DNA of 64,000 nt from Actinomycetaceae bacterium (GTDB lineage: Bacteria > Actinomycetota > Actinomycetes > Actinomycetales > Actinomycetaceae). A program made the translations under genes and the position numbers. This document shows, piece by piece, positions 10,020-28,069 of this stretch. The stretch spans positions 1 to 64,000 of the forward strand of contig JAUNLF010000008.1 in the NCBI GenBank assembly GCA_030532405.1, given 5' to 3'. Below the pieces are notes generated by a model. That model saw nothing but the letters and a program-made list of their open reading frames with translations, searched no databases and was not told the DNA's origin. Every line of letters starts with the position of its first letter. Position 1 is the first letter of the stretch.

Positions 10020-10027
10020 GCTTGTTC

Positions 10028-10814: not shown

Positions 10815-10846
10815 GAATGGCGGCAAAGACTCGAAATGGAGGGCTC

Positions 10847-11446
10847 ATGGCGAAGATCGTCGACAGTGCTGACGTATCACCAGAAGCAAACATTGGCGAA
10901 GGCACATCCGTGTGGCACCTGGCGCAGGTTCGCGAGGACGCGCAGGTAGGAAAACAGTGCATCATCGGACGCGGTGCCTACATCGGTACTGGCGTGAAGA
11001 TGGGCGATAACTGCAAGGTGCAAAACTATGCGCTTGTCTACGAGCCGGCCGAGCTCGAAGACGGGGTTTTCATTGGCCCCGCCGCCGTTTTGACCAATGA
11101 CCTATATCCGCGTGCGATTAACGCGGACGGCTCTTTGAAGTCCGCTTCGGATTGGGAGCACGTCGGCGTGACGCTTAAGAAGGGCTCCTCCGTGGGTGCT
11201 CGCGCGGTGTGTGTCGCTCCCGTAACTATCGGTGAGTGGGCAACGATCGCAGCCGGTGCTGTAGTGACTAAAGATGTTCCTAACTTCGCCCTCATGGCTG
11301 GAGTTCCGGCACGCCGAATTGGCTGGGTTGGTCAATCTGGTGTGAAGCTAGAACAGGTTGAAGGCACCAACCGCTTTAAGTGCCCCCAAACTGGAAACAT
11401 ATTCGAACAGGTCAGCGAGAACGAACTGAGAGAGGTTAACGACTAA
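10847..11446 (+). CDS. WbpD-like UDP-amino-uronate N-acetyltransferase
   Basis: A left-handed beta-helix acyltransferase of 199 aa built of hexapeptide repeats. Examples are SPEANIGEGTSVWHL, IGRGAYIGTGVKMGDN and VTIGEWATIAAGAVVTKDV. It closely matches the WbpD/WlbB type, which acetylates the 3-amino group of UDP-2-acetamido-3-amino-glucuronate. The true start is ATG 10847, placed by the GGAGGG site four bases upstream; the longer open frame upstream is not needed. It overlaps the following aminotransferase in TAATG, and a matching oxidoreductase follows, as in wbp/wlb loci. These neighbours support the assignment. Confidence 0.88.
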   Translation: MAKIVDSADVSPEANIGEGTSVWHLAQVREDAQVGKQCIIGRGAYIGTGVKMGDNCKVQNYALVYEPAELEDGVFIGPAAVLTNDLYPRAINADGSLKSASDWEHVGVTLKKGSSVGARAVCVAPVTIGEWATIAAGAVVTKDVPNFALMAGVPARRIGWVGQSGVKLEQVEGTNRFKCPQTGNIFEQVSENELREVND

Positions 11447-12549
11447 TGACCCAAGAAATGATCCCCGCCGCAAAGCCTTTGATCGGAGAGGAAGAGGTCG
11501 AAGCAGTAACTGCCGTCCTCCGCTCCGGAATGGTTGCGCAGGGCCCGCAGGTCGCGGCCTTCGAGGAAGAGTTCACCGCGCAGATGACGCCGGGCGCCGA
11601 ATCTGTGGCTGTTAACTCCGGTACTTCTGCACTTCACCTGGGCCTGCTGGCGTCGGGCGTTGGTGCTGGCGACGAGGTCATCGTCCCCTCGTTCACTTTC
11701 GCGGCAACTGGAAACTCGGTTGCAATCACGGGCGCTACGCCGGTCTTTGCCGATATCGATCTGGAGCACTTCTGCCTAGACCCGAAGTCTGTCGAGGCCG
11801 CTATTACGGACAAGACGAAGGCAATCATGCCCGTGCACCTTTACGGCCATCCGGCGCCGATGAAGGAGCTTCGCGAGATTGCGGACAAGCACGATTTGAT
11901 GATTTTTGAGGACGCCGCGCAGGCGCACGGTGCGTCCTTGGATGGTGAGAAGGTCGGCACGTTTGGTACGTTCGCGGCTTTCTCGTTCTATCCGACCAAG
12001 AACATGACCGCCGGTGAGGGCGGCATGATCACCACGAAGGACGCCGAGGTTGCTCGTAACGCTCGCTTGCTTCGTAACCAGGGTATGGAGCGCCGCTACG
12101 CTAATGAGCTTGTCGGCCTGAACAACCGTATGACTGATATTCACGCAGCCATTGGCCGCGTGCAGCTGAAGAAGGTTGAGGCCTGGACGAAGCAGCGTCA
12201 AGAGAACGCGAAGTTCCTGTCGGAGAATCTTGAGGGCGTTGTCGTTCCCGCCGTTGCTGAGGGGGCCGAGCACGTTTACCACCAGTACACGATCCGCGTG
12301 GTTGATACGGACCGTGACCGCTTCATGGAGGCGCTTCGCGAGGAGTACCAGGTTGGCTCCGGCGTTTACTACCCGATTCCGAACCACCGTCTGCCTTCGC
12401 TGGCTCCGTACGCTCCGGGCCTAGATCTGCCGGTTACTGAAGAGGCTGCGAAGACCGTGGTTTCGCTTCCGGTGCACCCGTCGCTGTCGCAGGCTGATCT
12501 GGACCGCATTGTCCAGGCAGTGAACGCCCTTGCTAAGGCAGGTGCGTAG
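11446..12549 (+). CDS. DegT/DnrJ/EryC1/StrS aminotransferase, WbpE-like
   Basis: A PLP-dependent sugar aminotransferase of 367 aa. The catalytic Lys185 lies in FYPTKNMTAGEGGM and Asp156 in EDAAQAHG. SGTSALHLGL and PSFTFAATGN are the usual cofactor-site motifs. Between an acetyltransferase and a Gfo/Idh/MocA oxidoreductase, it should aminate the 3-keto group made by the oxidoreductase, as WbpE does on the route to UDP-GlcNAc3NAcA. It overlaps the previous gene by one base and the next gene by one base, so translation is coupled. Family is sure; the substrate rests on context. Confidence 0.9.
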   Translation: MTQEMIPAAKPLIGEEEVEAVTAVLRSGMVAQGPQVAAFEEEFTAQMTPGAESVAVNSGTSALHLGLLASGVGAGDEVIVPSFTFAATGNSVAITGATPVFADIDLEHFCLDPKSVEAAITDKTKAIMPVHLYGHPAPMKELREIADKHDLMIFEDAAQAHGASLDGEKVGTFGTFAAFSFYPTKNMTAGEGGMITTKDAEVARNARLLRNQGMERRYANELVGLNNRMTDIHAAIGRVQLKKVEAWTKQRQENAKFLSENLEGVVVPAVAEGAEHVYHQYTIRVVDTDRDRFMEALREEYQVGSGVYYPIPNHRLPSLAPYAPGLDLPVTEEAAKTVVSLPVHPSLSQADLDRIVQAVNALAKAGA

Positions 12550-13535
12550 TGTCTGATATTCGCGTAGGCGTACTTGGCCTGGGCTCGATGGGCCGCCACC
12601 ACGTGCGCAATGCTCGTGAAACTGACGGTTTCGAACTTGTTGCCCTGGCTGACCCGAACGGTGACCGTTTTGAAGTTGCCCGCGGCATGGACGTCCTCCC
12701 GGACGTTGAATCGATGCTTGAGGTCGGAATTGACGCGGCTATTGTGGCTGTGCCGACGGCATTCCACTTTGACGCGGTTATGAAGCTTGCGGAGGCGGGC
12801 GTTCACACCATGGTTGAAAAGCCGCTGGCATCGACCCTGCAAGAGGGCGAAGCCATGGTGGAGGCGTTTGAAAAGGCCGGACTGGTAGGCGCGGTTGGCT
12901 ACGTTGAGCGTTGCAACCCGGCACTGCTGGAAATGCGCCGCCTGGTTTCGGAAGGCTACCTGGGTGACGTATACCAGATCGCTACGCGCCGCCAGTCGCC
13001 GTTCCCGGCCCGTATTTCTGATGTTGGTGTAGTTAAGGACTTGGCAACCCACGATGTGGATTTGGCCGCGTGGGTGGCTGGCTCCGAGTACGAGACCGTG
13101 TTTGCGCAAACCGCGTTCCGTTCTGGCCGTGAGTTTGAGGACATGGTTTCCGCGTCGGGCCGTTTCAAGAATGGCGTGCTGGTGAACCACTTGGTGAACT
13201 GGCTGACCCCGTTTAAGGACCGCATCACGGTCGTAACGGGCGAGCGCGGCGCCCTCGTCGCTGACACCGCAATGTCGGACCTCACGTTCTACGAGAACGG
13301 TCGATTCCCGATCCAGTGGGATCAGATTGCCGCGTTCCGTGGTGTTTCGGAGGGCGAGGTCACCAGGTTTGCACTGATCAAGCGTGAGCCTCTACGCGTT
13401 GAACACGAGCACTTCCGCGACGCCATCCTTGGTACCGGAACCGAGCACGTGACCATGCGTGAGGGCCTGCAAACCATGAAGGTCATTCAGGCACTGCTAG
13501 ATTCCGCAGAATCAGGCGAGTCTGTGCGCCTGTAG
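12549..13535 (+). CDS. Gfo/Idh/MocA oxidoreductase, WbpB-like
   Basis: An NAD(P)-dependent oxidoreductase of 328 aa. It has the Rossmann motif GLGSMG (10-15), the family EKPLA (90-94), and a DLATHDVDLAAW helix with the conserved Asp and His. In wbp/wlb pathways this family oxidises C3 of UDP-N-acetylglucosaminuronate, giving the substrate of the aminotransferase encoded just before. It starts at GTG 12549, sharing its first base with the previous stop codon. It is the last gene of the three-gene operon and is followed by a strong terminator. The exact sugar is inferred from the trio. Confidence 0.9.
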   Translation: MSDIRVGVLGLGSMGRHHVRNARETDGFELVALADPNGDRFEVARGMDVLPDVESMLEVGIDAAIVAVPTAFHFDAVMKLAEAGVHTMVEKPLASTLQEGEAMVEAFEKAGLVGAVGYVERCNPALLEMRRLVSEGYLGDVYQIATRRQSPFPARISDVGVVKDLATHDVDLAAWVAGSEYETVFAQTAFRSGREFEDMVSASGRFKNGVLVNHLVNWLTPFKDRITVVTGERGALVADTAMSDLTFYENGRFPIQWDQIAAFRGVSEGEVTRFALIKREPLRVEHEHFRDAILGTGTEHVTMREGLQTMKVIQALLDSAESGESVRL

Positions 13536-13621: not shown

Positions 13622-14944
13622 CTATTTCTTGACATCCCACTGAACTGTAGGATTCGTCGAGTTTTCGGGGAAGTTTGGCACCGCGACGGATGTTCCGGTA
13701 GTGAAGGGAACTGCAAAACCGAGCGTGGAGCCAAGCGTCGTGACCTCACCGGATTCTAAGTCCCACCTGTACATTTCCCCGCCGGAGTTGCCCGACCCGT
13801 TACCCCACACGTACGTATTGCCATTCAACGAGGCTGCTACACCATCGTTTATCGAGTAGACCCAATTAGTGAACGCCTCGGTTTCGCGGTCAAATTGCGC
13901 GGTCCAGGTCCGCGCAGAGCATCGATCTTGGATCGTTACGATCAAGTCTGATTCGCTAGCGGCTAGCCACTGAACTTTGAAGTAGTCCGCGAGTTCGATG
14001 GTGATCGGGTCGTACGCATCGTTTTCCCAACGGATTGTGAACGTGTCGAGCTCGGCTTCAATACCGTTGTTAGTGGTGTCTTCAACCCAGCCAGCGCTTT
14101 CGCCGACAGCCACCGGGAGCCTTGCCTGCGTAGTCACAGTCGGCTCAGTATTTGGGTCGGATAGATCCACATGAACGAGGGCTTGAACCCACTGGCCCGT
14201 ATCGTCTTGCACGTACGCTTCGCTCAGAACTTTCGACCCTGTAGTTGCGGGTGGAAACCACGGGGTGGGTGCTGGAGTTACCTCCTGCTGAGTGAGTGCC
14301 CACGAAGACAGCACTTCGGTTGCTTCCCCGCCTTCTTCTGGGGCCACGAGGACGCGCCATGCCATCTCACCCGCATTTGGCGGTTGCTTGGTATCGAGAA
14401 GTTGCTCAGTCCAAACTGCTTGGCCTTGGTTCATGGATCCTGCGAGAGCAGCCGGAGTATGGGACCCTTCGAGTTGGTCGGGTAGTAGGGTAGGCCCGGT
14501 GAAAGCGGTGAAAACGCCCTCGCGCCATAAACCAACTGAGGTTGGGGGATTGACGGACTCGGGTGGGAGGATCTGGCCGCCGGCAAGGAATGCATTATTG
14601 CTTGCTCCGATTAATTGGAGTCGGTCACCGTCCGCGCTGGTAGCACTTGTGGTGCCGTTCCACTGCTCGACTGGCTCGCTAGATAAGTCGCGCACGTTTC
14701 CGCTGGGCGCCTCACCGTTGACTGCTTTAACAGCTTCGGTGAGGTTGGCGGGTTTACTAGAGAACGCGGCGCACTGATTCGGCTGGCGGAACTCTCCGGG
14801 GCCGGTCAGTTCAACGATTTGCTCAGTGGGTTGTTCCGTTGGGGTAGGGGAGGGCGCTGGTTCGCCCTCATTCGGCGACGATGGTGTACACGCTGACAGT
14901 GATAGTGCAGCTAACGCGAGAAACGCTATGGGCTTCTTGGTCAT
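13622..14944 (-). CDS. Secreted lipoprotein of unknown function
   Basis: A 440-aa lipoprotein. It has a short basic start, a hydrophobic stretch and the lipobox LSAC with lipidated Cys19. A Pro/Glu/Thr-rich linker follows, then a globular part of about 380 residues. Repeated aromatic and acidic motifs late in the protein (NGNTYVWGNGSG, MYRWDLESGEVTTLG) hint at a beta-propeller-like fold, but I do not recognise a family. The ATG at 14944 shares a base with the stop of the upstream C39-like gene (TAATG), so the two are translationally coupled. A longer frame reaching 15262 is only a shadow of that gene. The protein is presumably anchored outside the membrane and works with its partner. Confidence 0.8.
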   Translation of the reverse strand: MTKKPIAFLALAALSLSACTPSSPNEGEPAPSPTPTEQPTEQIVELTGPGEFRQPNQCAAFSSKPANLTEAVKAVNGEAPSGNVRDLSSEPVEQWNGTTSATSADGDRLQLIGASNNAFLAGGQILPPESVNPPTSVGLWREGVFTAFTGPTLLPDQLEGSHTPAALAGSMNQGQAVWTEQLLDTKQPPNAGEMAWRVLVAPEEGGEATEVLSSWALTQQEVTPAPTPWFPPATTGSKVLSEAYVQDDTGQWVQALVHVDLSDPNTEPTVTTQARLPVAVGESAGWVEDTTNNGIEAELDTFTIRWENDAYDPITIELADYFKVQWLAASESDLIVTIQDRCSARTWTAQFDRETEAFTNWVYSINDGVAASLNGNTYVWGNGSGNSGGEMYRWDLESGEVTTLGSTLGFAVPFTTGTSVAVPNFPENSTNPTVQWDVKK

Positions 14945-17553
14945 TAGTACGCCATTCCGTGTCCGCCACCACCGTAGTTGCCAAGGAAGTTGTTGCCGAA
15001 CCTGACAGCGTTGTTGTAATCGAAGTACCGCTGTGCAGAGTAGCCGGTGATCGCGGAGCCGGGGCCGCCCGGATCCACGAAGCCGACGGTACCGGTAGCC
15101 GTGTTGTACCTGTAGGCAACTACGATGTGTGAACTCCAGCCTGCGTGTCCGTTGTAGTGTGGGCCACCGTAAGTTTCGATGGTGTCTACCAGAACGGGGC
15201 GCCCGGTGTAGAAGGAGTTCCTCACCTTGGAGTCGAACGCGGATCCTGATGGGAATGCCCACTGTTTGTAGTCGGAATTACCACGCCAACGGTTGATGCC
15301 TAGCGAGATGCGGCTTTGCTCCCACGAGGTGCCGCCGGAGTAGCCCGAGCCCACGTTCGCGTAGGTGGGGCCGGCGAGGTTCCACACGGTGAGGGGCTTA
15401 CCGTCATAGCGTGAGTTTCCAGCCCCCAGGTAGCGAAGCACCATGTACATGGAGGTCGGGCCACATGTCACGGAGTTAGGCTGTCCGGTCCAGGCGATCG
15501 GGTGGGTCAGCCAAGAACCACTGACCTGTACCTTGCTGGCGTAACGACTTTTCGCTCCCGCGACGTTTGAGAACGCTCCAGCACCACCGCTGTACTTGGC
15601 CGTGTACGTGTAGAGGTCTCCGTTGCTTCGCACGCCGTGGATACGCTTATAGGTTGCGGTAAAGTTCCCGATGTGGAGGCTCTTGAAATTGTTCCATCCG
15701 TTTCCAATTCGGCGAGGAGTGCCGAAGCCACCGTTTAGATTCTGGGGTAGTACGAACAGGTATCCATCTTTGTCGATGGAAAGCAAATCAGCGCGACCGT
15801 TATTATCCCAGTCGTCAGATGCGAATGTCCTGCTCGACGGCGGAAGCATGCTGGCTGGCGCACTGCTCGGTTTCACACTGTAGAAAGTTCCGCGTCCGTT
15901 TGATGTAGAGATGCCCAGTCGTCCATCTGGATACGTTACGTAGATGGCTGGGTTACCATTAGGCCCATCTCGAAGGAGCCACATATTGGTGAAACCTTGC
16001 CAGGAGTAACCGATAACTCGACTGGGAGAGAACCTGCCCGACCCATTACCTGGATATAAAACCAGGTTACCCGTAGCGTTGCGAGCAACAACATCGGGAG
16101 TGCCATCGCCGGTTACATCACTGCCGGACAAGATCGTGAAGCCATTCCAGCCGCTACCGATCTGGCGTCCGGAAACAAATCCGCCATCGGCCGACTTACC
16201 GGCATAGAACAAGAACCTTCCGTCGGCCTTCACAAGAGCCATATCGGCGACGCCGTCGCGGTTGAAATCCCCCATAGAATAGACACCGGCGGCGGGCCAG
16301 CCGTTACCGGACCTTCGCGGTGATGCAAAGGAGATGGCATTCCACTTGGCAGGGACCTCTTCGGGGATGGGCAGGGCGGTTCCGGCATCTTTCCTTACGA
16401 GCGGATAGCGCACTAGGGTGCCCGACTTATCGACGACATCAAGTGATCCTGACGTGCCACTTTCGAATCCTGTAGTTGCCCCGAAAACAACCGGACCTTC
16501 GGGGAGTGAAATCGGATCCGTCTCTTCGAAAACGCGACCGTCTGCAGTCTGCAGTACTTCTAGGTCACCGGTATCAGCGGAGCGCACGAGTGTTTCGTAA
16601 CCAGTGCCGCCAAGGTTGCCAGCCGCAAACGTTGTCGCAGTCAGTCCGCCGGGGATGCTGGCCGTCAAGATGGGCTGCCACCTGCCCGCTCCGTTGGTTG
16701 GGTAGATTAGGACGGAGGTACCTCTTTGTGCTAGAAGTGCGGGCTTCTGGCCTGGACCATACTCAACCATTACGACCTGGTCAAAGTTGTGCCAGCCGTT
16801 TCCGATCTTGCGAGTGGATTTGAATCCGCCAATTCCGTTACCACTGTACAGGAACAGGTCACCGTCATAACGCAGGCCTAGAACATCATAGTTGTGGTCT
16901 CCATCAAAGTCAGCCCCGGTGAGGACGAACTTCATGCCTCCCCACCCTGTGCCAATCCTTCTGGAGCTCAAAAGCTGACCCGACATCCCGCGCGTATGTA
17001 GCCAAAGCTCACCGTTGGCTCGGACGGTCATCAGGTCAGTTCCGTTGGCTCTGTCAAAGTTGCTGGCATGTAAGACATTGTAAGAGTCCCAGCCACTCGC
17101 GTTGACCTGCGGCGAGCCGAGCGACCACCTAGTCTCGGTATCGGTGCTACGCGTTTCTAGAAGGGGAGTGGGGGCGGACGGTTCAGAGACCTCTGGGGCT
17201 TCGAGGGGGCCAGGATTTGTTGGATCCGATACCGGCGTTTCGCTAGCGTCATCGCCCTTAGGATCCACTGTGTTAAAGTCTGGGGCGACTTCGGGTTGCG
17301 GGTCTCCTGCGGGTACGTCTGTTTGACTTTGATCCGCGTCTTCATTCGGATCTAGTGTGCCTGTACCGAGGTTTTCTGCAGCTGGATTTTCCTGTAGCGG
17401 ATCCGAATTATCGGCGCTAACAAGAGTAGCCGCACTGGGCCTCACGCCGGTGTCAACACTTAAGGTAGTTGTCGCCCCCGCAGGCACAGTGCCTATGGCA
17501 AGAGAGCTAAAAACTACAACCGTAGATAACAAACCTTTAAACTTCACGTTCAT
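14944..17553 (-). CDS. Secreted FG-GAP/VCBS-like repeat protein with C39-like peptidase domain
   Basis: An 869-aa exported protein. After a signal peptide (VVVFSSLAIGTVPAGA) comes an acidic Pro/Asp-rich linker (to about 110). Then comes a long run of FG-GAP-like blades with recurring phrases such as RxIGxGWxxF and DxxxDGxxD/DVTGDGTPD, some of them calcium-loop-like. The last 190 residues look like a papain-type C39-like peptidase: Cys in VTCGPTSMYMVL, His in SSHIVVAYRY and Asp in FVDPGG. The start is set at ATG 17553, in front of the signal peptide; upstream codons in frame encode no plausible signal. It overlaps the lipoprotein gene downstream. Substrate unknown. It lies beside the C5-epimerase fusion gene, which is transcribed divergently. 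Confidence 0.82.
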   Translation of the reverse strand: MNVKFKGLLSTVVVFSSLAIGTVPAGATTTLSVDTGVRPSAATLVSADNSDPLQENPAAENLGTGTLDPNEDADQSQTDVPAGDPQPEVAPDFNTVDPKGDDASETPVSDPTNPGPLEAPEVSEPSAPTPLLETRSTDTETRWSLGSPQVNASGWDSYNVLHASNFDRANGTDLMTVRANGELWLHTRGMSGQLLSSRRIGTGWGGMKFVLTGADFDGDHNYDVLGLRYDGDLFLYSGNGIGGFKSTRKIGNGWHNFDQVVMVEYGPGQKPALLAQRGTSVLIYPTNGAGRWQPILTASIPGGLTATTFAAGNLGGTGYETLVRSADTGDLEVLQTADGRVFEETDPISLPEGPVVFGATTGFESGTSGSLDVVDKSGTLVRYPLVRKDAGTALPIPEEVPAKWNAISFASPRRSGNGWPAAGVYSMGDFNRDGVADMALVKADGRFLFYAGKSADGGFVSGRQIGSGWNGFTILSGSDVTGDGTPDVVARNATGNLVLYPGNGSGRFSPSRVIGYSWQGFTNMWLLRDGPNGNPAIYVTYPDGRLGISTSNGRGTFYSVKPSSAPASMLPPSSRTFASDDWDNNGRADLLSIDKDGYLFVLPQNLNGGFGTPRRIGNGWNNFKSLHIGNFTATYKRIHGVRSNGDLYTYTAKYSGGAGAFSNVAGAKSRYASKVQVSGSWLTHPIAWTGQPNSVTCGPTSMYMVLRYLGAGNSRYDGKPLTVWNLAGPTYANVGSGYSGGTSWEQSRISLGINRWRGNSDYKQWAFPSGSAFDSKVRNSFYTGRPVLVDTIETYGGPHYNGHAGWSSHIVVAYRYNTATGTVGFVDPGGPGSAITGYSAQRYFDYNNAVRFGNNFLGNYGGGGHGMAY

Positions 17554-17696: not shown

Positions 17697-19568
17697 ATGA
17701 TCGTGTTGCGTAAAGCTCTCGCCGTATCGGGAGCACTTGCCCTACTGGGTGGATTCATCTTCTCAAACGGTGCGGTGGCAAGCGAAACTTCATCGCAGCT
17801 CTCGGACAAACGCCTGTCCGGAGAGCGGCCATCCCAAACCGCTGTGGCAGTAGCTGAGAGCACATTCGTTAAGCCCGAAACCGTATACCTTGCCCCCGAA
17901 AAGAGTGTAGTCAACGCTTATGCGGCTGCGAGCCAACAGGATGGACCAATTTTCGCGGTTCCGAAAAAGCGTTTGCCCGAAGCGGTGGGTACCTATATTC
18001 AACAGGTAACCCCCGAACGAGTGGTGCTGCTTGGGCAGGCTGATCAGTTCTCTGAAACGCTCGTGGATGAGTTAGCCGCTAATTCAAAAGTTGTGCGTGT
18101 AGAGGGCCAGTCGCAAACGGAAATTTCCCTGGAACTTGCAAAGACTACCTACCCGAGTCCGGACAGGGTGTACCTCGTGGACGGATACCTAACCTCCGCG
18201 GTGCCTTCTCCCGACGCGGTTGCGGCAGGCGCGCGCCAAGATGGTCCTGTCATCCTATTGCCCGCACACCAAGACATGCCCACAGACGTTGCGAAGTACA
18301 TCAGCGGCGCCAAAGAGGTAATTCAAGTTGGTGCAAAGCCCTTTGGAAACCAGGAGGTTAGCGACCTCAGGGCGGGGCGCGATCGTATTACAACCGCCAC
18401 CGAAGTTCAAAGTGGTGAAGTTGGGGGCAAAATCTACCTGGCTAAAGCGAATTCCGTAGCGGGCTTTAACGCCGCCCTCAATGTGAACGACGGATCGGTT
18501 CTCTTGGCTAGAGATCAGCTTCCAGCCGAGGTTTGCGCGCATATCTACTTCAGGCAACCCGAAGAGATCGTGGCAATTGGTAACACTGATGAGCTGAAAG
18601 ACTCTGTTCTTGAACAGGCAAACGAGTGCCTTACAAAGGGCTGGGAAACCAGCGGCTACGAAATGCGTGAGATTAGCGAAGACTTCTACGACTCTGAACT
18701 CATGTCGTACACGACCCACGAAGATCGGGCAGTATGCGACAAAATGATGACCCTCGATGGTGTGCACATGTGTGCTCCCGATGGGGTAAGGATTATTCGC
18801 GTTGATGGTGAAGAAGCATACAACTACACGAGTATCTCCCAACTAGCTCTGTACAACATCTCGCAGTACAAGAAGACGGGTACGGAGCGATTCTTGCAAC
18901 GCGCGGTTACGCAAGCGGAGGCAATTATTGACCTGAGCGAGATGCGTGGTGAAGAAATGTGGTTGCCCTACGATTACAACTTCGCCCTCAACGGTGAGAA
19001 GGCTTTTACCATCAAGGCGCCCTGGTTCTCCGGCATGGCTCAGGGGCAGGCACTTTCGGTGTTCTCCAGACTCGCAATGTTGCAACCCGATGTCACAAAA
19101 TGGGCAGAAACGAGAGACGCGCTGTTCGCAACTTTCAAGCAGATTGATCGTTACCCCGAACCGTTCTCGCTATCGTTTTCCAACGACTATTACATGTGGT
19201 TTGAAGAATTTGCGGGCTCAACCCCGCCCCTGATGGTGCCGAACGGGCACATGTTTGCAATCTTCGGACTCTACGATTACTGGGAGTCAACCAAGGATTC
19301 GCAAGCCCAAGAACTATTAGACGCGGGGCTAACTACGATTCGTGACGCGTATGGGATCTATCGAAATCCTGGTGAGATGTCTTCATACTGCACGTACATG
19401 CCGCGTTGTCGTCCGATTCAGCACGTGAAGTATCATGCGATTCACGCGATGCAGCTACACTTCCTGTACCTAATGACTGGCGATGAAGAGTTTGAGAGGC
19501 AGTCCGAGGAACTGTTCGCGGACTTCCACGAGATCGATGAGGAGTCTGGCTGGGGGCTCGTTTGGTAG
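17697..19568 (+). CDS. Secreted CWB2-repeat / D-glucuronyl C5-epimerase-like fusion
   Basis: A 623-aa exported protein with two parts. After a signal peptide (ALAVSGALALLGGFIFSNGAVA), residues about 35-315 form three cell-wall-binding repeat 2 (CWB2)-like units. The first opens with KRLSGERPSQTAVAVAE, and later ones contain DGPxxxxP and VxxxG turns. Residues about 330-623 match the C-terminal domain of D-glucuronyl C5-epimerase. Key phrases are WFSGMAQGQALSVFSRL, NGHMFAIFGLYDYW and KYHAIHAMQLHFLYLMTGD. Such enzymes flip glucuronate to iduronate in a finished polymer. CWB2 repeats usually hold proteins on secondary wall polymers. Together they suggest modification of a uronate-containing glycan on the cell surface. 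Four cysteines in the second half might form disulfides. Confidence 0.82.
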   Translation: MIVLRKALAVSGALALLGGFIFSNGAVASETSSQLSDKRLSGERPSQTAVAVAESTFVKPETVYLAPEKSVVNAYAAASQQDGPIFAVPKKRLPEAVGTYIQQVTPERVVLLGQADQFSETLVDELAANSKVVRVEGQSQTEISLELAKTTYPSPDRVYLVDGYLTSAVPSPDAVAAGARQDGPVILLPAHQDMPTDVAKYISGAKEVIQVGAKPFGNQEVSDLRAGRDRITTATEVQSGEVGGKIYLAKANSVAGFNAALNVNDGSVLLARDQLPAEVCAHIYFRQPEEIVAIGNTDELKDSVLEQANECLTKGWETSGYEMREISEDFYDSELMSYTTHEDRAVCDKMMTLDGVHMCAPDGVRIIRVDGEEAYNYTSISQLALYNISQYKKTGTERFLQRAVTQAEAIIDLSEMRGEEMWLPYDYNFALNGEKAFTIKAPWFSGMAQGQALSVFSRLAMLQPDVTKWAETRDALFATFKQIDRYPEPFSLSFSNDYYMWFEEFAGSTPPLMVPNGHMFAIFGLYDYWESTKDSQAQELLDAGLTTIRDAYGIYRNPGEMSSYCTYMPRCRPIQHVKYHAIHAMQLHFLYLMTGDEEFERQSEELFADFHEIDEESGWGLVW

Positions 19569-19570
19569 CC

Positions 19571-20863
19571 CTACTCTGTGTCCGCCTGGGAATCGTATAG
19601 GCGACATGCCCTCAAAGTTAAAAAAACAAGACCGATAAGAGCTACAGACATGAGTGACGCAAGAAGCCAGGTGGTGCTAACTACATCCAGCCCAAAATGT
19701 GAGCCGGTAAGAACAGCACCCAACCCTGTCACCATGTAAAGAACTGCGAAAGCCAACATCTCGTGTTGCCTTTGAGTTACCACAAACACCGTGGAAATTG
19801 GGGAGGTCACGATATTCATATAAAGCCAGGGCACAAGGGCGCGTGCGATCTCGCCGGACATATCCCAGCGGCTTCCGAGGTAAATTGGGAACAGCCAGGG
19901 GGCTATCAGGAAAATAATCAGGAATGGACCAAACCCAAACGCCAGTGATACCTTGACCGATTTCTTCGCCAAAGGTAACAGCCCGCCTCTTGGGGTGTCT
20001 GCAAAACGCTGAAAGAAAACCTGGGAAATTGCACCGTTAATCAGCGTGACTGGAGCCTGCATTAGAAGCCATGCCTTGGTAAACTGACCGACCGCATTCG
20101 CGGAAAAAAGCGCTGCAATCAAAAGGTTTATTCCCTGTAAGCGGATAGCGTCAACCAAAGCGTTGGGGCCGTTTAACAAAGGCATTCGACGAAATCGTTT
20201 AAGAAGTTCAATTGAGGTCGCTGTTGCTTCACCCTCGTTCTTGACGCGTCTGCGCCCCTTCCACATCAGAGTTGCGGCCGCGCCGGCCTGACCTACTATC
20301 TGGCCGACTACCAATCCCACGATCCCGCCGATTGAGAATAGCGCCAGTATGATCTGAAAGATCTGCACTGAGCTACGCATTTGTACGCGGTTAATAGAGA
20401 TAACTTTGAACTGCTGGGTTTTTGTAAACCAAAAGCTGAAGGAGTTTACCTGAGCTAGTGTGAACACAAGCAGACCCGTCACCGTCATCCAGGGGCCCAA
20501 GTGTGGATATCCTACGGCGCTTGCGACCGTATCTCCTAATGGAATCATCAACAGGGTGGTCAAGACGGAAACGATCGTGATAATCCCCGTCACCGCCCCG
20601 CGGAGGCGACGGGCGTTCGCGAAAGTATCGGTAATGACGATCGCCATATCGTACCTGAGACCCGCGATTGTAGTAATCGTGGTTGCAACCGCCAAGATTA
20701 CGGCAAACTCGCCGGTTTCTTCGGGTGAGTAAAGTCTGGAAATGATGGGCTCGAGCATCATTACAATAATCTGCGCCAGCACCGTACCCGTCAGCAATGT
20801 GGAGATATTACGAGCCGAAGGGTATTTCAGGGTAAATTTCTTCCATCGCTCATTGAGAGACAT
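19571..20863 (-). CDS. Wzx-type polysaccharide flippase
   Basis: An integral membrane protein of 430 aa with about twelve hydrophobic segments. The N-terminal region (LLTGTVLAQIIVMMLEPIISRLYSPEETGEFAV in part) is typical of the O-antigen/teichoic-acid flippase group of the MOP superfamily. It should move undecaprenyl-linked repeat units across the membrane. It lies 18 bases upstream of nothing else on its strand but follows a GT4 gene, so the two likely form an operon. Its stop codon comes two bases after the convergent C5-epimerase stop with no room for a terminator. Confidence 0.88.
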   Translation of the reverse strand: MSLNERWKKFTLKYPSARNISTLLTGTVLAQIIVMMLEPIISRLYSPEETGEFAVILAVATTITTIAGLRYDMAIVITDTFANARRLRGAVTGIITIVSVLTTLLMIPLGDTVASAVGYPHLGPWMTVTGLLVFTLAQVNSFSFWFTKTQQFKVISINRVQMRSSVQIFQIILALFSIGGIVGLVVGQIVGQAGAAATLMWKGRRRVKNEGEATATSIELLKRFRRMPLLNGPNALVDAIRLQGINLLIAALFSANAVGQFTKAWLLMQAPVTLINGAISQVFFQRFADTPRGGLLPLAKKSVKVSLAFGFGPFLIIFLIAPWLFPIYLGSRWDMSGEIARALVPWLYMNIVTSPISTVFVVTQRQHEMLAFAVLYMVTGLGAVLTGSHFGLDVVSTTWLLASLMSVALIGLVFLTLRACRLYDSQADTE

Positions 20864-20881: not shown

Positions 20882-21988
20882 TTATCGGATCAAGTCCGTG
20901 TAAAGCTGTGCCAGTTGATCCGCGCCAACCCTGGCAGCACGGTTGTGTATAACCCACTCGCGGGAAGCCTCACTTATAGCTTGAAGATCAGCGTTAGACA
21001 TGGCGATGACCTCTGCCATTGTCCGTATCAGCGCCTCTGGATCGTACTCGCTAATCAACCATCCTAGGCCAGGCGCAACCATCTCGGGGGTGCCGCCGAC
21101 CGCGTTTGCTATAACGGGCGTGCCACACGCCTGGGCCTCGAGTAGTACGAGCCCCGCCGCCTCCTGGCGGCCGTGCCAGGTCTTAGTAGGTAACACGAGC
21201 ACGTCCGCCATACGCAGGTGATCGCGAACTTGCGCCCTAGACAACGAGCCTAGAACGCGGATGTGAGGGTATCGGTCGGCCTCGCGTAATAGACGTGGTA
21301 GGTGAGGTCCGGTGCCAATCACCTTCAACGTGTGAGGGGCCTTCTCGTACAGACTCCGAGACGCTTCAGTTAAGTCCAAGATTCCTTTTTGATCGCTGAG
21401 AGCACCGACGAAAACGAAGTTACGAAGTTCTTCGTATTTGTCTACTTTCTTGCCAGGGCTAAAGAATTCGGTGTCGACGCCCTGGTAGATAACTTCCAGC
21501 TTGGATTCGTCAACGCCGCGAGTGCGCGCCTGATTCGCAAGATATTCAGATACGGCTACGATCCTGTCGGATCCTTGTAGAGCCGATTGTGTGTTGAATC
21601 GGTTCCACAGGGCAAGAGGCGCTACGTCCTCGGAATCGATTGTAAAAAGGTCGGTTCCGTGAACGGTTGTAATCATCGGAACGCCTAGATTCTTTGACGC
21701 ATTCAGTGCGGGTAAGCTCCAGGTTGAGGCGTGCTGATGTATGATATCCGGTTTCGCCTGCTCGATTTGGCGTCGCATTTTTCCAAGCCGAAGGTACTTT
21801 AGTTTTTCACGATTTGAAAAGCTCAGTTTAGACGCGGTCGCTTCGTGAATGTGAAGGTTTATTTCGGGGGAGACGTCGGCGGCTAAGGTGAAAAACTCCC
21901 AGTCGATGCTTGGAAGTGCGAGGGCGTGTTCAACCGCGAAGTAGGTGGGCGGAATCCGAAGTGTTCCCTTTGTGAGTGCGACCCGCAT
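20882..21988 (-). CDS. GT4 glycosyltransferase
   Basis: A 368-aa GT-B fold enzyme. The N-terminal half has HQHASTWSLPAL and VHGTDLF. The C-terminal donor domain has FVGALSDQKGILDL, VIGTGPHL and the GT4 EX7E-type site in QEAAGLVLLEAQACGTPVIANAVGGTPE. The start is ATG 21988, just after GGAGGG; earlier in-frame codons are not supported. No signal or membrane segment is present, so it acts at the cytoplasmic face on a lipid-linked intermediate. It is 18 bases upstream of the flippase gene. The sugar donor is unknown. Confidence 0.9.
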   Translation of the reverse strand: MRVALTKGTLRIPPTYFAVEHALALPSIDWEFFTLAADVSPEINLHIHEATASKLSFSNREKLKYLRLGKMRRQIEQAKPDIIHQHASTWSLPALNASKNLGVPMITTVHGTDLFTIDSEDVAPLALWNRFNTQSALQGSDRIVAVSEYLANQARTRGVDESKLEVIYQGVDTEFFSPGKKVDKYEELRNFVFVGALSDQKGILDLTEASRSLYEKAPHTLKVIGTGPHLPRLLREADRYPHIRVLGSLSRAQVRDHLRMADVLVLPTKTWHGRQEAAGLVLLEAQACGTPVIANAVGGTPEMVAPGLGWLISEYDPEALIRTMAEVIAMSNADLQAISEASREWVIHNRAARVGADQLAQLYTDLIR

Positions 21989-22250
21989 GCATCCCTCCAT
22001 GTCAGTAGGCGTGGCCTTTCGTTTGTTCCAATCCTGACATTCACCCGGCTCTTGTGTACCGGGAGAACCTGATAGTCGTAAAGATTTTGACCGTGCGCGG
22101 TGCTCCATATGATATCGCGTTACCAATCTCGCTCTTGCGCACCGGTGCAACATGATCGGACCGCTGGTTTTGACATGTAGCATGTTAAGGCACAGCGAAG
22201 CAAGATGGCAGATGAATTAGCAAATGCCGGGGTGTCAGGGAGGAATACAA
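21989..22250. promoter_or_regulatory. Divergent intergenic region
   Basis: This 262-base gap separates the minus-strand GT4/flippase pair from the plus-strand DUF6541 gene. It holds a small dyad, ACATG-TAG-CATGT (22173-22185), overlapping a TTGACA hexamer (22170-22175), and a GGGAGG site at 22238-22243 for the next gene. I see no open frame or RNA in it. Confidence 0.35.
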
Positions 22251-24308
22251 ATGTGGTTGCAGGCGGTGCCTCAATTTATAGGGCTACTTGCACTGTTGTA
22301 TATCCCGGGATATTTCGTTCTTAGGGCTTTTTGGTTCTCTAAGAGGCAGTCCCTGGCGGGTGCCCCTGTCACCTTCTCTGCGATTATAGCCCTGCAGGGA
22401 ATCTTGTGGGACATGGCGGGGATCGCGTGGCGCCCGCTGACAGTTTTGCCTGTGTATGCCTTGATTGGGGCTGCTAGCATTTTCATTTTGGTGGAGCGCG
22501 GCGGCTCGTGGCAACGCCTGTTCGTCTTTACCGCGCCCTTAGATAATTTCTTTCGCACTGGTGACGCGGGCACTGTTGGCAGCGATGATTTTTGGCGTGG
22601 CTGGGGCAATCAGCCAAGGCCGTCCGTTTCCAAATCCACGGCTGTGCTACTGGCCCTAATGATGCTGGTTGCAGTTGCTACGATATCTGGGCCGATGCTC
22701 GTTATAAACCCGCAGATTCCGCTTCAAGGATGGGACCCGGTCTTCCACGCAAATGGAATCGCAGTGGTGGAGCAGACTCAGTCGGCGTCATACTTCGGGT
22801 CTTTGACCGCTCTTTACGGCTTGGATACAACTCCAACGAACTATGCAGTTGCATGGCATGCAATAGCTAGTTTGGTTGCAACTGCACAAAATGTGATCGT
22901 CTCCATGAACGCGTTCATCGTGGTTATTAGCGTACTTTGGATAACCGGAGTGTGGGGGCTAATAAGGTCACTGGGACTGGATAACCGCTACGTATTGGCA
23001 GGTCTTGCAACTATTGCTGCAATGCTGGTTTTTCCGACTTACCTAACATCAACCTACCCGCCCATTCCGAATGCTTTTGCGGTAGCACTATTGCCCGGGT
23101 TTTTAGCTCTTGTTGCGATAACTGTTCGCGAAGGGGTCCGGGACCAGTCGGTTAAGGTATTTGGTATTCGAGTTTTGGCACTGTTATTGCTTGCCGTGGG
23201 GTCACTGTTTGTACATCCGTCCATGATCACATCTTTGGCACTACTGCTTGTAGTGCCATTTACCGGATTGCTTGTAAAGTTCTTTATGAGGGCACCCAGG
23301 CGTCATAAGCTTGTAGCTCTGGTGTTTTCCATAGCCCTAATACTGGCAACTGTGCTAACCCTCATTCTGGTGCCGAGTTTCCAAGAACGGTTGCGTGCGC
23401 AACTGACCTACGATACTACGCCGGGAGTGCTCGATTCGGCACTGCTTAAGACCGTCACGGCCTGGCCGATGCTCGGGGCCGAAATGGGAAGAAACAATGC
23501 CACTGCACTACTGCTGTTACAGGCGGGACTCTTCGTACTGCTGGTTTTTGGAGTGGGCACCCTAATAGTGAAGAAATCGCGACGTTGGCTCATCTTGGTG
23601 TGGCTAGTCACCGCGGTTCTCACATTCACAACAATGGCGAGGCAAGGCCCATTCGTAGCCATTGCGGGGTTGTGGTATATGAGCCCGCATCGGGCTATGT
23701 CACTGCAACAAATACCGATGGCAGTACTGATTTCAATCGGTCTAGTAACGTTTATTCAGTTGGCACGTAAACTAATCGTGAGTGCACGCGCCAGGCGCTA
23801 CTTTACAGCTGGCTTCCTGATCATAGTCCAGCTCGTTGTTGCAGGACTCTCGCTGGGCCCACGTAGCTACATGATTAAGGATGCGTGGGGCTACAGGCGC
23901 CCCGCGTTTGCAATGGTGTCCGAAGACGAAACAGCTATGCTTTACAGACTTCGTGATCAGCTCCCGACGGACGCAATTGTGCTGGGTGACCCGAGCACAG
24001 GGGCTGGATTTGTAAAGGCAATCACAGGTAGAGATGTAGTATTTGCGCAACTATACGTTCGTGAATCAAATGAGAGGGAGTGGTATCTGGCACGCCACTT
24101 GTCAGATATTAATACAGATCCGCAGGTTTGCCAGTTCGTGAACGAGCTGGGTATCACGCACTATTATGCGGATTCGAATTATTTCAACCTGGGTGCATCT
24201 ATGCGAGAGCGCATGCCGGGGCTCTATCATGTGCCGGTTTACGATGGGTTTGAACTCGTTGATTCTGGAGGAACCGCGGACGTGTACGAGATTACTGCGT
24301 GCAGGTAA
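22251..24308 (+). CDS. DUF6541-like polytopic membrane protein
   Basis: A 685-aa protein with about a dozen membrane segments and an extracytoplasmic-looking C-terminal domain of about 150 residues. That domain has IVLGDPSTGAGFVKAITG and VCQFVNELGITHYYAD. It is a distant paralogue of the protein at 29.4-31.4 kb, which has GDPRTGLPLVYALTG and VCEYLADVNAKYFYTD at the same places. The pattern fits actinobacterial DUF6541 proteins found in polysaccharide loci and resembles GT-C glycosyltransferases or polymerases. The start at ATG 22251 is chosen for its GGGAGG site eight bases upstream. As no Wzy-like polymerase is otherwise visible, this is a candidate for that role (inference). Base composition is lower in G+C than flanking core genes. 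Confidence 0.75.
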   Translation: MWLQAVPQFIGLLALLYIPGYFVLRAFWFSKRQSLAGAPVTFSAIIALQGILWDMAGIAWRPLTVLPVYALIGAASIFILVERGGSWQRLFVFTAPLDNFFRTGDAGTVGSDDFWRGWGNQPRPSVSKSTAVLLALMMLVAVATISGPMLVINPQIPLQGWDPVFHANGIAVVEQTQSASYFGSLTALYGLDTTPTNYAVAWHAIASLVATAQNVIVSMNAFIVVISVLWITGVWGLIRSLGLDNRYVLAGLATIAAMLVFPTYLTSTYPPIPNAFAVALLPGFLALVAITVREGVRDQSVKVFGIRVLALLLLAVGSLFVHPSMITSLALLLVVPFTGLLVKFFMRAPRRHKLVALVFSIALILATVLTLILVPSFQERLRAQLTYDTTPGVLDSALLKTVTAWPMLGAEMGRNNATALLLLQAGLFVLLVFGVGTLIVKKSRRWLILVWLVTAVLTFTTMARQGPFVAIAGLWYMSPHRAMSLQQIPMAVLISIGLVTFIQLARKLIVSARARRYFTAGFLIIVQLVVAGLSLGPRSYMIKDAWGYRRPAFAMVSEDETAMLYRLRDQLPTDAIVLGDPSTGAGFVKAITGRDVVFAQLYVRESNEREWYLARHLSDINTDPQVCQFVNELGITHYYADSNYFNLGASMRERMPGLYHVPVYDGFELVDSGGTADVYEITACR

Positions 24309-24328
24309 AGGTGTCGTAGACTCGCTGT

Positions 24329-25483
24329 ATGGCGAACAGAGCAGAAATACTACTGATCTCATTCTCGAACATTCAGAAGGACGCAAGGGTCTTACGCCAG
24401 CTGTCGGTTGTTAAAGAGTTTGGCGATGTTACGACGGTTGGTTACGGTGAAAAGCCGGAGGGCGCGACCCATCACATTTCGATTCCGGACAGTAAGCCTT
24501 CGCTTCCGCAGACTCCTTTTGGGGTCCTAGCCCTAGGTTTCAGGGCACACGAGATTGCTGAACTCCAAGCCCCGGGAGCGAAATATGCGCGCGCAAAGCT
24601 GACTGGTCGCCAGTACAACGCTGTTATCGCAAATGACGCACGCGCGTTGCCGCTGGCTTTTGCCGTTAATAACGGTGCTCCGGTTTGGGCTGACCTCCAC
24701 GAGTGGGCTCCAGAAGAACGTACGCATGTCACCTCTTGGCGACTGCTGGTAGCTCCTTTGATGGAACACATTTGCAAAAAATACCTACCCAAAACAACAG
24801 CAGCAACAACTGTTGGAAGCGAAATCGCCAAACTTTACGAGAAGCATTTTGGGGTCTTACCAGAGCTCATGCGGAACACGCCAAACTTTGTTGAGCTGGA
24901 GCCATCCGAAACTCCGGATGACCGGATCCGTATGGTTCATTCCGGAGGCGCAGTATTCGGGCGCAATCTTGAGGCAACTATAGACGTGGCGAAGAGCCTG
25001 CAAGATAGGTTTTCGCTTGACCTTTACCTAATTCCCGCCAACGATGGGGGAAAATACTTAAAGGAGCTTAGAGAACGAGCGGAGGGCGCGCCTAACGTGA
25101 CGTTCCATGATCCGGTAAGCCCAGACCAGTTGCCGGTTACTCTGAACCAGTATGATTTGGGAGTATTTTGGATTCCTCCGTTTAATACAAATGCAAGACT
25201 GACCTTGCCCAACAAACTTTTTGACTTTATCCAAGCTCGCTTGGCACTTGCTGTTGGCCCCACCATCGAAATGGTCAGAGTTCTAAACGAGTATGAAACC
25301 GGAATAGTTGCTGACAGTTTCGAGCATGAAGACATCGTGGAATCCCTCAAGAATCTCACTTCTGAGGACATCCGTAGGATGAAGCAAAACTCTGTGAAAG
25401 CAGCACGGGATTTGAATTTTCAAAAGGAATCGGAAGTCGCTCGCGGAATCATGCGCCGACTACTGAAGATCGAGGAGAACTAG
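24329..25483 (+). CDS. Glycosyltransferase, GT4-like
   Basis: A 384-aa protein of the GT-B type. The N-terminal half has SNIQKDARVLRQL, common in this group, and DLHEWAPEERTHV. The C-terminal half has MVHSGGAVFGRNLEATIDV and LPNKLFDFIQARLALAVGPT, a donor-site segment like that of GT4 enzymes. No signal or membrane segment. It sits 20 bases after the DUF6541 gene and eight bases before the next glycosyltransferase, so the three are one transcription unit. The sugar specificity is unknown. Low G+C compared with the core genes. Confidence 0.82.
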   Translation: MANRAEILLISFSNIQKDARVLRQLSVVKEFGDVTTVGYGEKPEGATHHISIPDSKPSLPQTPFGVLALGFRAHEIAELQAPGAKYARAKLTGRQYNAVIANDARALPLAFAVNNGAPVWADLHEWAPEERTHVTSWRLLVAPLMEHICKKYLPKTTAATTVGSEIAKLYEKHFGVLPELMRNTPNFVELEPSETPDDRIRMVHSGGAVFGRNLEATIDVAKSLQDRFSLDLYLIPANDGGKYLKELRERAEGAPNVTFHDPVSPDQLPVTLNQYDLGVFWIPPFNTNARLTLPNKLFDFIQARLALAVGPTIEMVRVLNEYETGIVADSFEHEDIVESLKNLTSEDIRRMKQNSVKAARDLNFQKESEVARGIMRRLLKIEEN

Positions 25484-25491
25484 GAGACCGC

Positions 25492-26688
25492 ATGCTTCTT
25501 ACAGGGCTGATGGTCAGCCGCATATTTGCGCCGGAACCCTCCGCTGCTTCCCTCAGGCTCAATGCCGTGAAGGCCGGGCTTGAGAATGCTGGCGCGAAAA
25601 TGCGAGTGGTTACCACCGCTCCGCCTCCTGGAATCATTGCAGAGCCTGACAGCTCAATAACGCGAGTGCCCGTTTTGCGTGATTCTGAAGGGTACGTAAA
25701 GGGGTACATCTCCTACGCATCTTTCGATATCCAGGCGTTTTTTAAGATCCTGACTATGCCGAAAACTGATTTCGTGCTGGTGGAGCCTCCGCCAACCACG
25801 GGGGCTGTTGCACGGGTCGCGAGTGCGCTTAGAGGTACACCGTACTTTTGGTATGCCGCAGACGTTTGGTCGGATGCTACCGAGAGCATGGACGTGCCCC
25901 AGGTTGTTAAGACCGTTGTGCGAGGGTTGGAACAGTTCGCGGTAAGTGGTGCTCGCGGTTGTATTGCTGTTTCGGACGATGTTGCGAAGCGTGCCCGGGA
26001 GCTTGGGGCAAAGTCAGTGAAGGTTGTGCCAAATGGTGCTGATACAGACCTGTTCAACCCGCACGTGGGTGCTCCTTCAGAGTCGCAAAAGAACGGTATG
26101 GGGATCACTAAGCCGTACTTTATTTATGCGGGAACTGCCTCCGGGTGGCAGGGCGCGGAGCTGTTCGCCCACGCATTTGAAAAGTTCTGGTCACCGGAAA
26201 GTGAGGTCCAGTTCCTCTACCTAACTAGGGGAGACGCTGTACCTCAGCTCGAGGAGATTGCTACCAGAATGAAGGTTCGAGCACAGGAGTTGGGCGTAGA
26301 TTACACTCCACTGGTTGTGCATAAGACTGTACCTTCGCAGGAAGCCGCTCAGTGGCAACATGAGGCTCTTGCGAGCTGCGTTTCTATTCAGCCTGGTATC
26401 GGCTACGACCTCGCGTACCCGACCAAGGTACTAACCTCACTTGCCTGTGGTACTCCGGTTATTTACGCAGGTGCTGGCCCGGCTGCAACCGACGTAACTG
26501 CGGACGACCTCGGCCTTGCAGTGCCCTACGATGAAAAGTCGGTCCAAGAAGCCATGAAAACCCTCAAAGAGGCTGACCAAGAACGTTGGGATGAGACGCG
26601 CCTATTTAGCTGGGTAGAGAAGAATCGATCCATGAAAGCGGTAGGCGAAGCTGTGGCACTCTACATCGAAGATAGAACTGAGCTCTAA
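25492..26688 (+). CDS. GT4 glycosyltransferase
   Basis: A 398-aa GT-B enzyme, probably adding one sugar to the growing lipid-linked repeat unit. It begins LLTGLMVSRIFAPEPSAAS, with VVPNGADTDLF in the linker region and donor-site features FIYAGTASGWQGAELF and YDLAYPTKVLTSLACGTPVIYAG. A GGAG site lies just before ATG 25492. It is the last gene of the DUF6541-GT-GT unit and is followed by a strong terminator. It is soluble or peripheral on the inner membrane face. Specificity is unknown. Confidence 0.87.
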   Translation: MLLTGLMVSRIFAPEPSAASLRLNAVKAGLENAGAKMRVVTTAPPPGIIAEPDSSITRVPVLRDSEGYVKGYISYASFDIQAFFKILTMPKTDFVLVEPPPTTGAVARVASALRGTPYFWYAADVWSDATESMDVPQVVKTVVRGLEQFAVSGARGCIAVSDDVAKRARELGAKSVKVVPNGADTDLFNPHVGAPSESQKNGMGITKPYFIYAGTASGWQGAELFAHAFEKFWSPESEVQFLYLTRGDAVPQLEEIATRMKVRAQELGVDYTPLVVHKTVPSQEAAQWQHEALASCVSIQPGIGYDLAYPTKVLTSLACGTPVIYAGAGPAATDVTADDLGLAVPYDEKSVQEAMKTLKEADQERWDETRLFSWVEKNRSMKAVGEAVALYIEDRTEL

Positions 26689-28019: not shown

Positions 28020-28069
28020 GTTAAACTAAGGGCGATTCTAAGCAACAAATTGTTGAAATGGAGAAGCGC

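Follow-up and report, generated by a model that had tools for sequence, protein, structure and literature searches.

The closest described relatives of the protein reported here are the D-glucuronyl C5-epimerases (GLCE) of human and zebrafish (structures 6HZZ and 4PW2), which convert D-glucuronic acid (GlcA) residues to L-iduronic acid (IdoA). The key residues of GLCE are listed as E499, Y500, N510, Y560, and Y578 (PMC13308652, after Debarnot 2019), with Tyr578 as the base and Glu499 as the acid (PMC12834895). The protein in question is encoded in a stretch of 64,000 nucleotides, hereafter the window, which covers positions 1 to 64,000 of contig JAUNLF010000008.1 from an Actinomycetaceae bacterium (assembly GCA_030532405.1). 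It joins three putative wall-binding CWB2 repeats to a GLCE-type catalytic domain, and its gene lies among genes of the types that make the diamino-uronate 2,3-diacetamido-2,3-dideoxy-D-mannuronate (ManNAc3NAcA). We give roughly an even chance to the reading that this putatively wall-anchored protein catalyzes C5-epimerization of ManNAc3NAcA to the corresponding L-guluronate (L-GulNAc3NAcA) on an exported teichuronic acid-like polymer.

The window protein and GLCE have in common the C-terminal catalytic domain and the residues Glu499, Asn510, and Tyr578 (human numbering). In contrast to GLCE, the window protein carries CWB2 repeats instead of the N-terminal domains and Phe instead of Tyr500; no route to UDP-GlcA was found in its genome, and the gene context argues against a GlcA-to-IdoA reaction. 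A bacterial C5-epimerase from Bermanella marisrubri RED65, which is likened to the window protein by description only, is said to share the GLCE mechanism and is active on O-desulfated heparin (PMC13308652). Agl32 of Halobacterium provides a prokaryotic case of uronate C5-epimerization of a surface glycan, as proposed for the window protein, but it has a predicted AGE-type fold, lacks the GLCE catalytic residues, and works on the glycan prior to its passage across the membrane (PMC13308652). Among Actinobacteria, the teichuronic acid-like polymer of Streptomyces griseus (utrA-J) contains ManNAc3NAcA made by a Pseudomonas-like route; unlike in the window locus, a C5-epimerase is not named in the accessible part of that source (PMC13274773). 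Finally, the proteins Cwp6 and Cwp8 of Clostridioides difficile (5J72 and 5J6Q) have CWB2 repeats that match the N-terminal half of the window protein, whereas their effector domains differ.

Domain Architecture and Active Site

The initial annotation, made from the sequence alone, had described an exported protein with three CWB2 repeats fused to a glucuronyl C5-epimerase-type domain. This architecture was recovered (Table 1): the open reading frame (ORF) is as described, the three motifs quoted at the time (YHxxHxxQL among them) are present in the translation, and both PF06662 and PF04122 exceed their Pfam cut-offs. PF04122 matches the whole protein at E 6.6e-11, with two stretches passing, and with a local CWB2 profile derived from five relatives all three repeats are recovered, the third weakly. 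A genome-level PF04122 scan at E <= 0.001 gave no match and missed the repeats of the window protein as well; therefore, these repeats are divergent. Among the control genomes, PF06662 matched Bacteroides ihuae and Methanocaldococcus jannaschii (a single one of these matches exceeding the cut-off), and PF04122 matched Bacillus subtilis and M. jannaschii. From its signal-like N-terminus, the window protein is probably exported, and by analogy with the CWB2 modules of C. difficile its repeats would bind a wall polymer. A second CWB2-like protein is encoded elsewhere in the window genome (locus L187, 1814-3613, contig G000:C19; E 7e-5), and its C-terminal segment has an HExxHxxGH metalloprotease-like motif, judged by eye.

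Membership of the C-terminal half in the GLCE family, also part of the earlier description, is likewise borne out. This half alone matches human GLCE 6HZZ at E 2.6e-10, and the match is confined to the C-terminal domain of GLCE. A 16-row family profile reaches 6HZZ at E 1.3e-27, and its three best solved matches are all GLCE (E 1.3e-26 or lower); the same profile matches the GH76 mannosidase 4C1S far more weakly (E 2.6e-5). The N-terminal beta-hairpin and beta-sandwich domains of GLCE are not matched in this comparison of sequences only, and the CWB2 repeats occupy that half.

The active-site residues were compared in 102 aligned rows, the window protein included, which remain from 104 ORFs after removal of L001 and L003, which duplicate the window protein and L032 (a relative from a Bowdeniella nasicola metagenome-assembled genome). 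The numbering was checked for E499, Y500, and N510, and the positions of Y560 and Y578 come from a manual count on the human alignment. These alignments indicate that the proton-transfer pair (Glu504 and Tyr579) is present and that one active-site tyrosine is Phe. The position of Tyr564 holds Tyr in 96 rows, a gap in five, and Trp in one. In addition, the W-S-M-Q-G motif is kept in the window protein and the YHP motif is altered. The initial annotation had made the active-site tyrosines a test of its family call, and the outcome is mixed: the counterpart of Tyr578 is kept, a Tyr stands at or near the position of Tyr560, and Tyr500 is replaced. The Phe at the 500 position, together with a long branch in the family tree, may indicate reduced or altered activity of the window protein. 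An Agl32-like enzyme was rejected as an identity for this protein; Agl32 is described as lacking the GLCE residues (PMC13308652), and of these five, three are certain in the window domain.

Uronates Available to the Cell

All five enzyme types for the synthesis of ManNAc3NAcA (WbpA, B, E, D, and I) are encoded in one locus of the window (10697-13535 and 26785-29368), as assigned by Pfam family and solved relatives. The 2-epimerase scores 375 bits against the UDP-GlcNAc3NAcA enzyme of T. thermophilus (8SXY) versus 278 bits against the UDP-GlcNAc 2-epimerase 4NEQ. Trp307, Tyr96, and Ala18 are given as marks of UDP-GlcNAc3NAcA 2-epimerase specificity (PMC10622841), and the window enzyme has Trp307 and Tyr96 rather than Arg and His/Gln. 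The diamino-uronate setting proposed in the initial annotation thus stands, with five wbp types nearby. The signal-like start, the wall-binding repeats, and this setting together make action after export probable.

The window genome (2.23 Mb, 99.7% complete, 33 contigs) contains one PF00984 dehydrogenase; PF03721 finds the same protein and two further matches below the cut-off. This dehydrogenase scores 223 bits against the UDP-ManNAcA dehydrogenase 4R16, 203 against Cap5O, 127 against CalS8, and 107 or less against named UDP-glucose dehydrogenases. In contrast, the second dehydrogenase of the related genome G006 has UDP-glucose dehydrogenase as its closest match (325 bits). A route to UDP-glucuronate was not found in the window genome by the PF00984 and PF03721 searches. 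Since the sole dehydrogenase found is of the UDP-N-acetylhexosamine (UDP-HexNAc) type, the uronate available in this cell is probably N-acetylated. The earlier analogy with glucuronate-modifying enzymes holds for the family call but may not extend to the substrate. Overall, the earlier interpretation is partly supported.

The N-acetylated substrate could be a different one, with N-acetylmannosaminuronate (ManNAcA), N-acetylglucosaminuronate (GlcNAcA), or 2,3-diacetamido-2,3-dideoxy-D-glucuronate (GlcNAc3NAcA) converted to L-GulNAcA, L-IdoNAcA, or L-IdoNAc3NAcA, respectively. The product of WbpA is UDP-GlcNAcA (PMC10622841), the 2-epimerase of the window also exceeds the NCBIfam cut-off for wecB, and the WbpA-, B-, D-, and E-type proteins stay below the substrate-specific NCBIfam cut-offs, all of which would fit such an enzyme. 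However, the presence of all five wbp types and the Trp307/Tyr96 signature point to ManNAc3NAcA over other N-acetylated uronates, and we regard these substrates as unlikely.

Association With Diamino-Uronate Genes

The association of the epimerase gene with this pathway extends beyond the window. Among 213 genomes of the family, 18 carry PF06662, and WbpI (threshold E <= 1e-110) is found in 110, namely in all 18 carriers versus 92 of the 195 non-carriers (Fisher 4e-6, kinship ignored). The epimerase and WbpI genes are at most 10 kb apart in nine of the 18 carriers, with 0.16 expected at random positions. UDP-glucose dehydrogenase was not found in seven carriers (G000, which is the window genome, and G010, G042, G078, G089, G276, and G247), and six of these seven are among the nine carriers with linked WbpI.

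These counts depend on how the dehydrogenases were typed. The 42 of 50 PF00984 matches that had been fetched as loci were compared by BLAST with labelled ones; the PF00984 bit score alone is too crude, as the high-scoring L134 and L178 are WecC, and it was the BLAST retyping that placed G247 among the carriers lacking UDP-glucose dehydrogenase. For the other eight matches no locus had been fetched; the carrier count is affected by just one of them, the second match of G078, which is of the WbpA type (L151). The UDP-glucose type is defined by relative NCBIfam scores, all of them below the cut-offs, and by one structure search.

A further sample consisted of named loci, the best 80 of 92 when ranked by their similarity to a 4-row alignment that includes the window protein, and is thus a non-random sample of the family. 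The 4-row alignment was chosen as the query because the 16-row alignment was too diverse for that search; a scan of genome contigs with a single-protein query gave no match. Several named loci fall well short of 20 kb, and one of them (L032) is also the carrier G089. A WbpI-like gene lies near the epimerase in 13 of 79 named loci, including those of Streptomyces, Micromonospora, Microbacterium, and Alkalibaculum, and 12 of these 13 have both Trp307 and Tyr96. UDP-glucose dehydrogenase was found near the epimerase in none of the 79 loci.

These patterns bear on the possibility that the window protein is a true glucuronyl C5-epimerase, which, like GLCE, would convert GlcA to IdoA, in this case within a polymer of the wall or of the environment. 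The protein belongs to the GLCE family by sequence, UDP-glucose dehydrogenase is present in 11 of the 18 carriers, and the Bermanella enzyme introduced above is described as the sole identified bacterial member (PMC13308652). However, the window genome and six other carriers have no UDP-glucose dehydrogenase that could be found, the named loci have none near the epimerase, and the epimerase is linked to diamino-uronate genes in half of the carriers. On this dehydrogenase census, GlcA was set aside as a disfavored substrate, and its use by the window protein is improbable to about the same degree as that of the other N-acetylated uronates. In some carriers glucuronate may be the substrate, and the family may comprise two substrate groups.

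Two adjacent epimerase-family paralogues with Tat-like N-termini, judged by eye, were observed in Streptomyces (L099, 9488-13864; L100, 6130-10533), in loci that also contain the WbpD, WbpI, and WbpA types. In Alkalibaculum sporogenes, a protein of 1094 amino acids (L035, 7511-10792) combines Y_Y_Y repeats, a glucosaminidase match below the cut-off, and a C5-epimerase domain, and its gene sits near WbpA- and WbpI-like genes.

Recurrent Anchors and Gene Turnover

The initial annotation had regarded wall anchoring of such an epimerase as rare; in the family, such anchoring recurs. CWB2 repeats occur in six of 105 distinct family ORFs, with three copies each, and FG-GAP repeats occur in four; Pfam confirmed CWB2 in L032, L007, L060, L069, and L088 and FG-GAP in L013 and L014. 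In a tree of the 101 ORFs that are long enough, CWB2 fusions are found at three places: the window protein with Bowdeniella (support 96), Leifsonia with G139 (97), and two Chloroflexi metagenome-assembled genomes (100). The second of these forks also contains the repeat-less L034, and Leifsonia flava has both a copy with repeats (L060) and this near relative without them. When every row of the tree was coded in three states, at least five changes were needed; the group table without its 91 unlabelled rows gives one change per label. The deep forks of the tree are in part weakly supported. The relative from Bowdeniella is 39% identical to the window protein over the whole length and 48% identical over the C-terminal half. 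A one-off fusion or an assembly chimera was set aside in view of the occurrence of the same architecture in Bowdeniella, Leifsonia, G139, and the two Chloroflexi genomes.

Within the genus of the window genome, the same locus holds a CWB2 form (window), an FG-GAP form (G006 and G009), a shortened form (G010), or no epimerase gene (G001), such that different gene forms share the variable part of one locus in four genomes. In G006 and G010, as in the window, its position is between WbpB and WbpI/WbpA; the available stretch of G009 starts after WbpB. G010 and G001 have 35 kb in common at 90-92% identity, and the difference between them, 1,150 bp located where WbpI ends, contains the epimerase gene. 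The shortened copy in G010 and the precise absence in G001 are a case of recent decay or loss. Positions 13535-25491 of the window show no similarity to the G001 locus at the DNA level. Taken together, the epimerase gene appears to behave as an accessory, antigen-modifying gene.

Alternatively, the window copy itself may be drifting and may now be a binding protein or a weakly active remnant, which would be compatible with any of the other readings of the family. The replacement of Tyr500 by Phe, the altered YHP motif, the long branch, the weak repeats, and the fate of the gene in G010 and G001 are consistent with this. However, the frame of 623 amino acids is intact, and both putative proton-transfer residues and the W-S-M-Q-G motif are kept. 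A decaying copy is quite unlikely.

Proposed Reaction

The preferred reading, C5-epimerization of ManNAc3NAcA at the wall, may be formulated as follows. The window protein would be secreted and then retained at the cell wall through its CWB2 repeats. Its substrate would be the finished, exported wall glycan of the surrounding locus, carrying ManNAc3NAcA. Tyr579 as the base would remove the C5 proton of ManNAc3NAcA, and Glu504 as the acid would supply a proton from the opposite face. As a result, some D-ManNAc3NAcA residues would become L-GulNAc3NAcA, as GLCE converts GlcA to IdoA. Computation backs the ORF with its domains, family and catalytic pair, the locus, the lack of a UDP-glucuronate route among the searches made, and the link to diamino-uronate genes across genomes; export, wall binding, the reaction with its exact substrate and product, and the role of the polymer are inferred.

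Several observations weigh against this reading. In the protein itself, Tyr500, a listed key residue of GLCE, is Phe, the counterpart of Tyr560 is not aligned exactly to the human enzyme, the CWB2 repeats are weak, and the branch is long (0.9 versus 0.34 for the sister); in G010, the epimerase frame (L145, 15528-16677) stops before the Tyr560/Tyr578 motifs. For the pathway, the NCBIfam results given above count here as well, the best structure matches of the aminotransferase are not WbpE, and the 2-epimerase lacks Ala18, with Leu at this position as in nine of 13 related loci. Across genomes, WbpI also occurs in the 92 genomes without PF06662, and the WbpA type occurs in four non-carriers of the same genus. 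In the nine unlinked carriers, WbpI is 33-692 kb away (four) or on a different contig (five), and eight of these nine have UDP-glucose dehydrogenase (Fisher 0.05). Among the 79 named loci, 66 have no WbpI-like gene near the epimerase, and 60 show none of the query genes reported.

Instead of epimerizing, the protein might cleave the wall polymer as a lyase or hydrolase, thereby trimming or remodeling it. Lyases and C5-epimerases have the first reaction step in common, the change from Tyr500 to Phe could alter the outcome, and the family profile also matches the GH76 mannosidase. However, the protein retains the epimerase acid-base pair and the best solved matches are GLCE; cleavage is very unlikely. 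A role in the modification of animal glycosaminoglycans at the cell surface is highly improbable: heparosan is the substrate of the GLCE family in animals and the protein is probably surface-bound, but the gene sits within a polymer biosynthesis locus, relatives occur in Streptomyces, Micromonospora, and similar genera, whose habitats speak against this role, and no heparinase II/III family match was found in the window genome. A search for lyase 8 (PF02278) matched no control genome and has no bearing on the presence of such lyases.

With ManNAc3NAcA as the preferred substrate, a broader proposal can be made tentatively and with somewhat less than even confidence. The exported GLCE-like proteins of Actinomycetota would largely be amino-uronate C5-epimerases that convert ManNAc3NAcA to L-GulNAc3NAcA in wall teichuronic acids once these have been exported; their anchors (CWB2, FG-GAP, or a lipid or membrane anchor) would be swappable and would place them at the surface, and surface-antigen chemistry would be switched as the gene is gained, swapped, or lost. 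L-GulNAcA occurs in polysaccharides of Vibrio and Pseudoalteromonas, and a gulo-configured 2,3-diacetamido-hexuronic acid has been described in V. anguillarum and V. ordalii (PMC7600630, PMC3210612). The genome paper on V. anguillarum O2 describes several UDP-sugar routes, including one for ManNAc3NAcA, and the words gulo and epimerase are absent from its accessible text (PMC10059132). If the proposal is true, it would supply an enzymatic origin for the L-gulo diamino-uronates that are known from bacterial polysaccharides, and polymer-level C5-epimerization, as in heparan sulfate and alginate, would extend to diamino-uronates and to the Gram-positive wall. Furthermore, a widespread, little-characterized group of bacterial PF06662 members would gain a named substrate, and the diversity of wall glycans sensed by lectins and toxins would be explained in part.

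In a literature search that was mainly open-access, with subscription journals mostly outside its scope, no report was found of a C5-epimerase coupled to teichuronic acid, to cell wall binding, or to actinobacterial heparosan. Of the papers listed by two further searches, those of one nowhere name GulNAc3NAcA, and among those of the other a C5-epimerase appears only in PMC7725333, as a C3/C5-epimerase. The predicted novelty is accordingly a recurrent wall anchor on a GLCE-family enzyme and a new class of substrate.

Gene Neighborhood

The genes around the epimerase (Table 1) look like a locus for wall-polymer biosynthesis, to judge from their domain content.

Table 1. Features of the epimerase protein and of the surrounding locus, in window positions
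Feature	Position	Strand	Basis or remark
Putatively exported ORF, 623 amino acids: signal-like N-terminus, three CWB2 repeats, D-glucuronyl C5-epimerase domain	17697..19568	+	ATG start, complete frame
Signal peptide candidate, residues 1-28 (...GAVA)	17697..17780	+	Sec-like, judged by eye
CWB2 repeat 1, residues 39-121	17811..18059	+	PF04122; local profile, independent E-value (i-E) 1.2e-11
CWB2 repeat 2, residues 134-203	18096..18305	+	PF04122; local profile i-E 3.3e-5
CWB2 repeat 3, residues 227-298, weak	18375..18590	+	Local profile i-E 0.0097
C5-epim_C domain, residues 425-601	18969..19499	+	PF06662; E 1.8e-26, 93.2 bits vs cut-off 23.3
Glu504, equivalent to human GLCE Glu499	19206..19208	+	Alignment; Glu in 98/102 ORFs
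Phe505, in place of human GLCE Tyr500	19209..19211	+	102 ORFs: Tyr 96, Phe 3 (window included), Cys 1, gap 2
Asn516, equivalent to human GLCE Asn510	19242..19244	+	Alignment; Asn in 99/102 ORFs
Tyr564, probable counterpart of human Tyr560	19386..19388	+	Offset by one or two columns in human alignments
Tyr579, equivalent to human GLCE Tyr578	19431..19433	+	Tyr in 97/102 ORFs, gaps in the other 5
LCP (LytR-CpsA-Psr) family protein 1	6795..8270	-	PF03816
LCP family protein 2	8263..9633	-	PF03816
DUF2304 and glycosyltransferase 2 protein, PpgS-like	9636..10702	-	256 bits, under NCBIfam cut-off 370
WbpD-like hexapeptide N-acetyltransferase	10697..11446	+	PF00132; synteny
WbpE-like aminotransferase (DegT)	11446..12549	+	PF01041; WbpE structures matched, not best
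WbpB-like oxidoreductase (GFO/IDH/MocA)	12549..13535	+	Profile and sequence matches
Divergent neighbor, FG-GAP repeat and peptidase C39-like	14944..17553	-	Domain matches; start set by eye
Wzx-type flippase	19571..20863	-	PF13440
Glycosyltransferase GT4	20882..22183	-	Domain match
DUF6541 protein	22224..24308	+	First gene of 22224..26688 block
Putative glycosyltransferase	24329..25483	+	Weak match, under cut-offs
Glycosyltransferase	25492..26688	+	
WbpI-like UDP-GlcNAc3NAcA 2-epimerase	26785..27969	-	375 bits to 8SXY; Tyr96 and Trp307 kept
WbpA-like UDP-HexNAc 6-dehydrogenase	28058..29368	+	Sole nucleotide-sugar 6-dehydrogenase found in genome
DUF6541 protein, second	29372..31402	+	
GT2 glycosyltransferase	31461..33254	+	
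UDP-galactopyranose mutase (GLF)	33288..34472	+	PF03275
ABC-2 exporter, membrane and ATPase subunits	34485..36092	+	PF01061, PF00005

The G+C content is 51-55% over positions 17000-26999, 56-60% over 11000-16999 and 27000-32999, and 53-54% over 9000-10999. It is no clean marker of the variable part, the stretch at 9000-10999 being low too. The two DUF6541 proteins occur alongside the PpgS-like glycosyltransferase and DUF2304, which may point to polymer decoration outside the membrane. The divergent neighbor of the epimerase gene (14944-17553) has FG-GAP repeats, and in sister species such repeats are fused to the epimerase itself.

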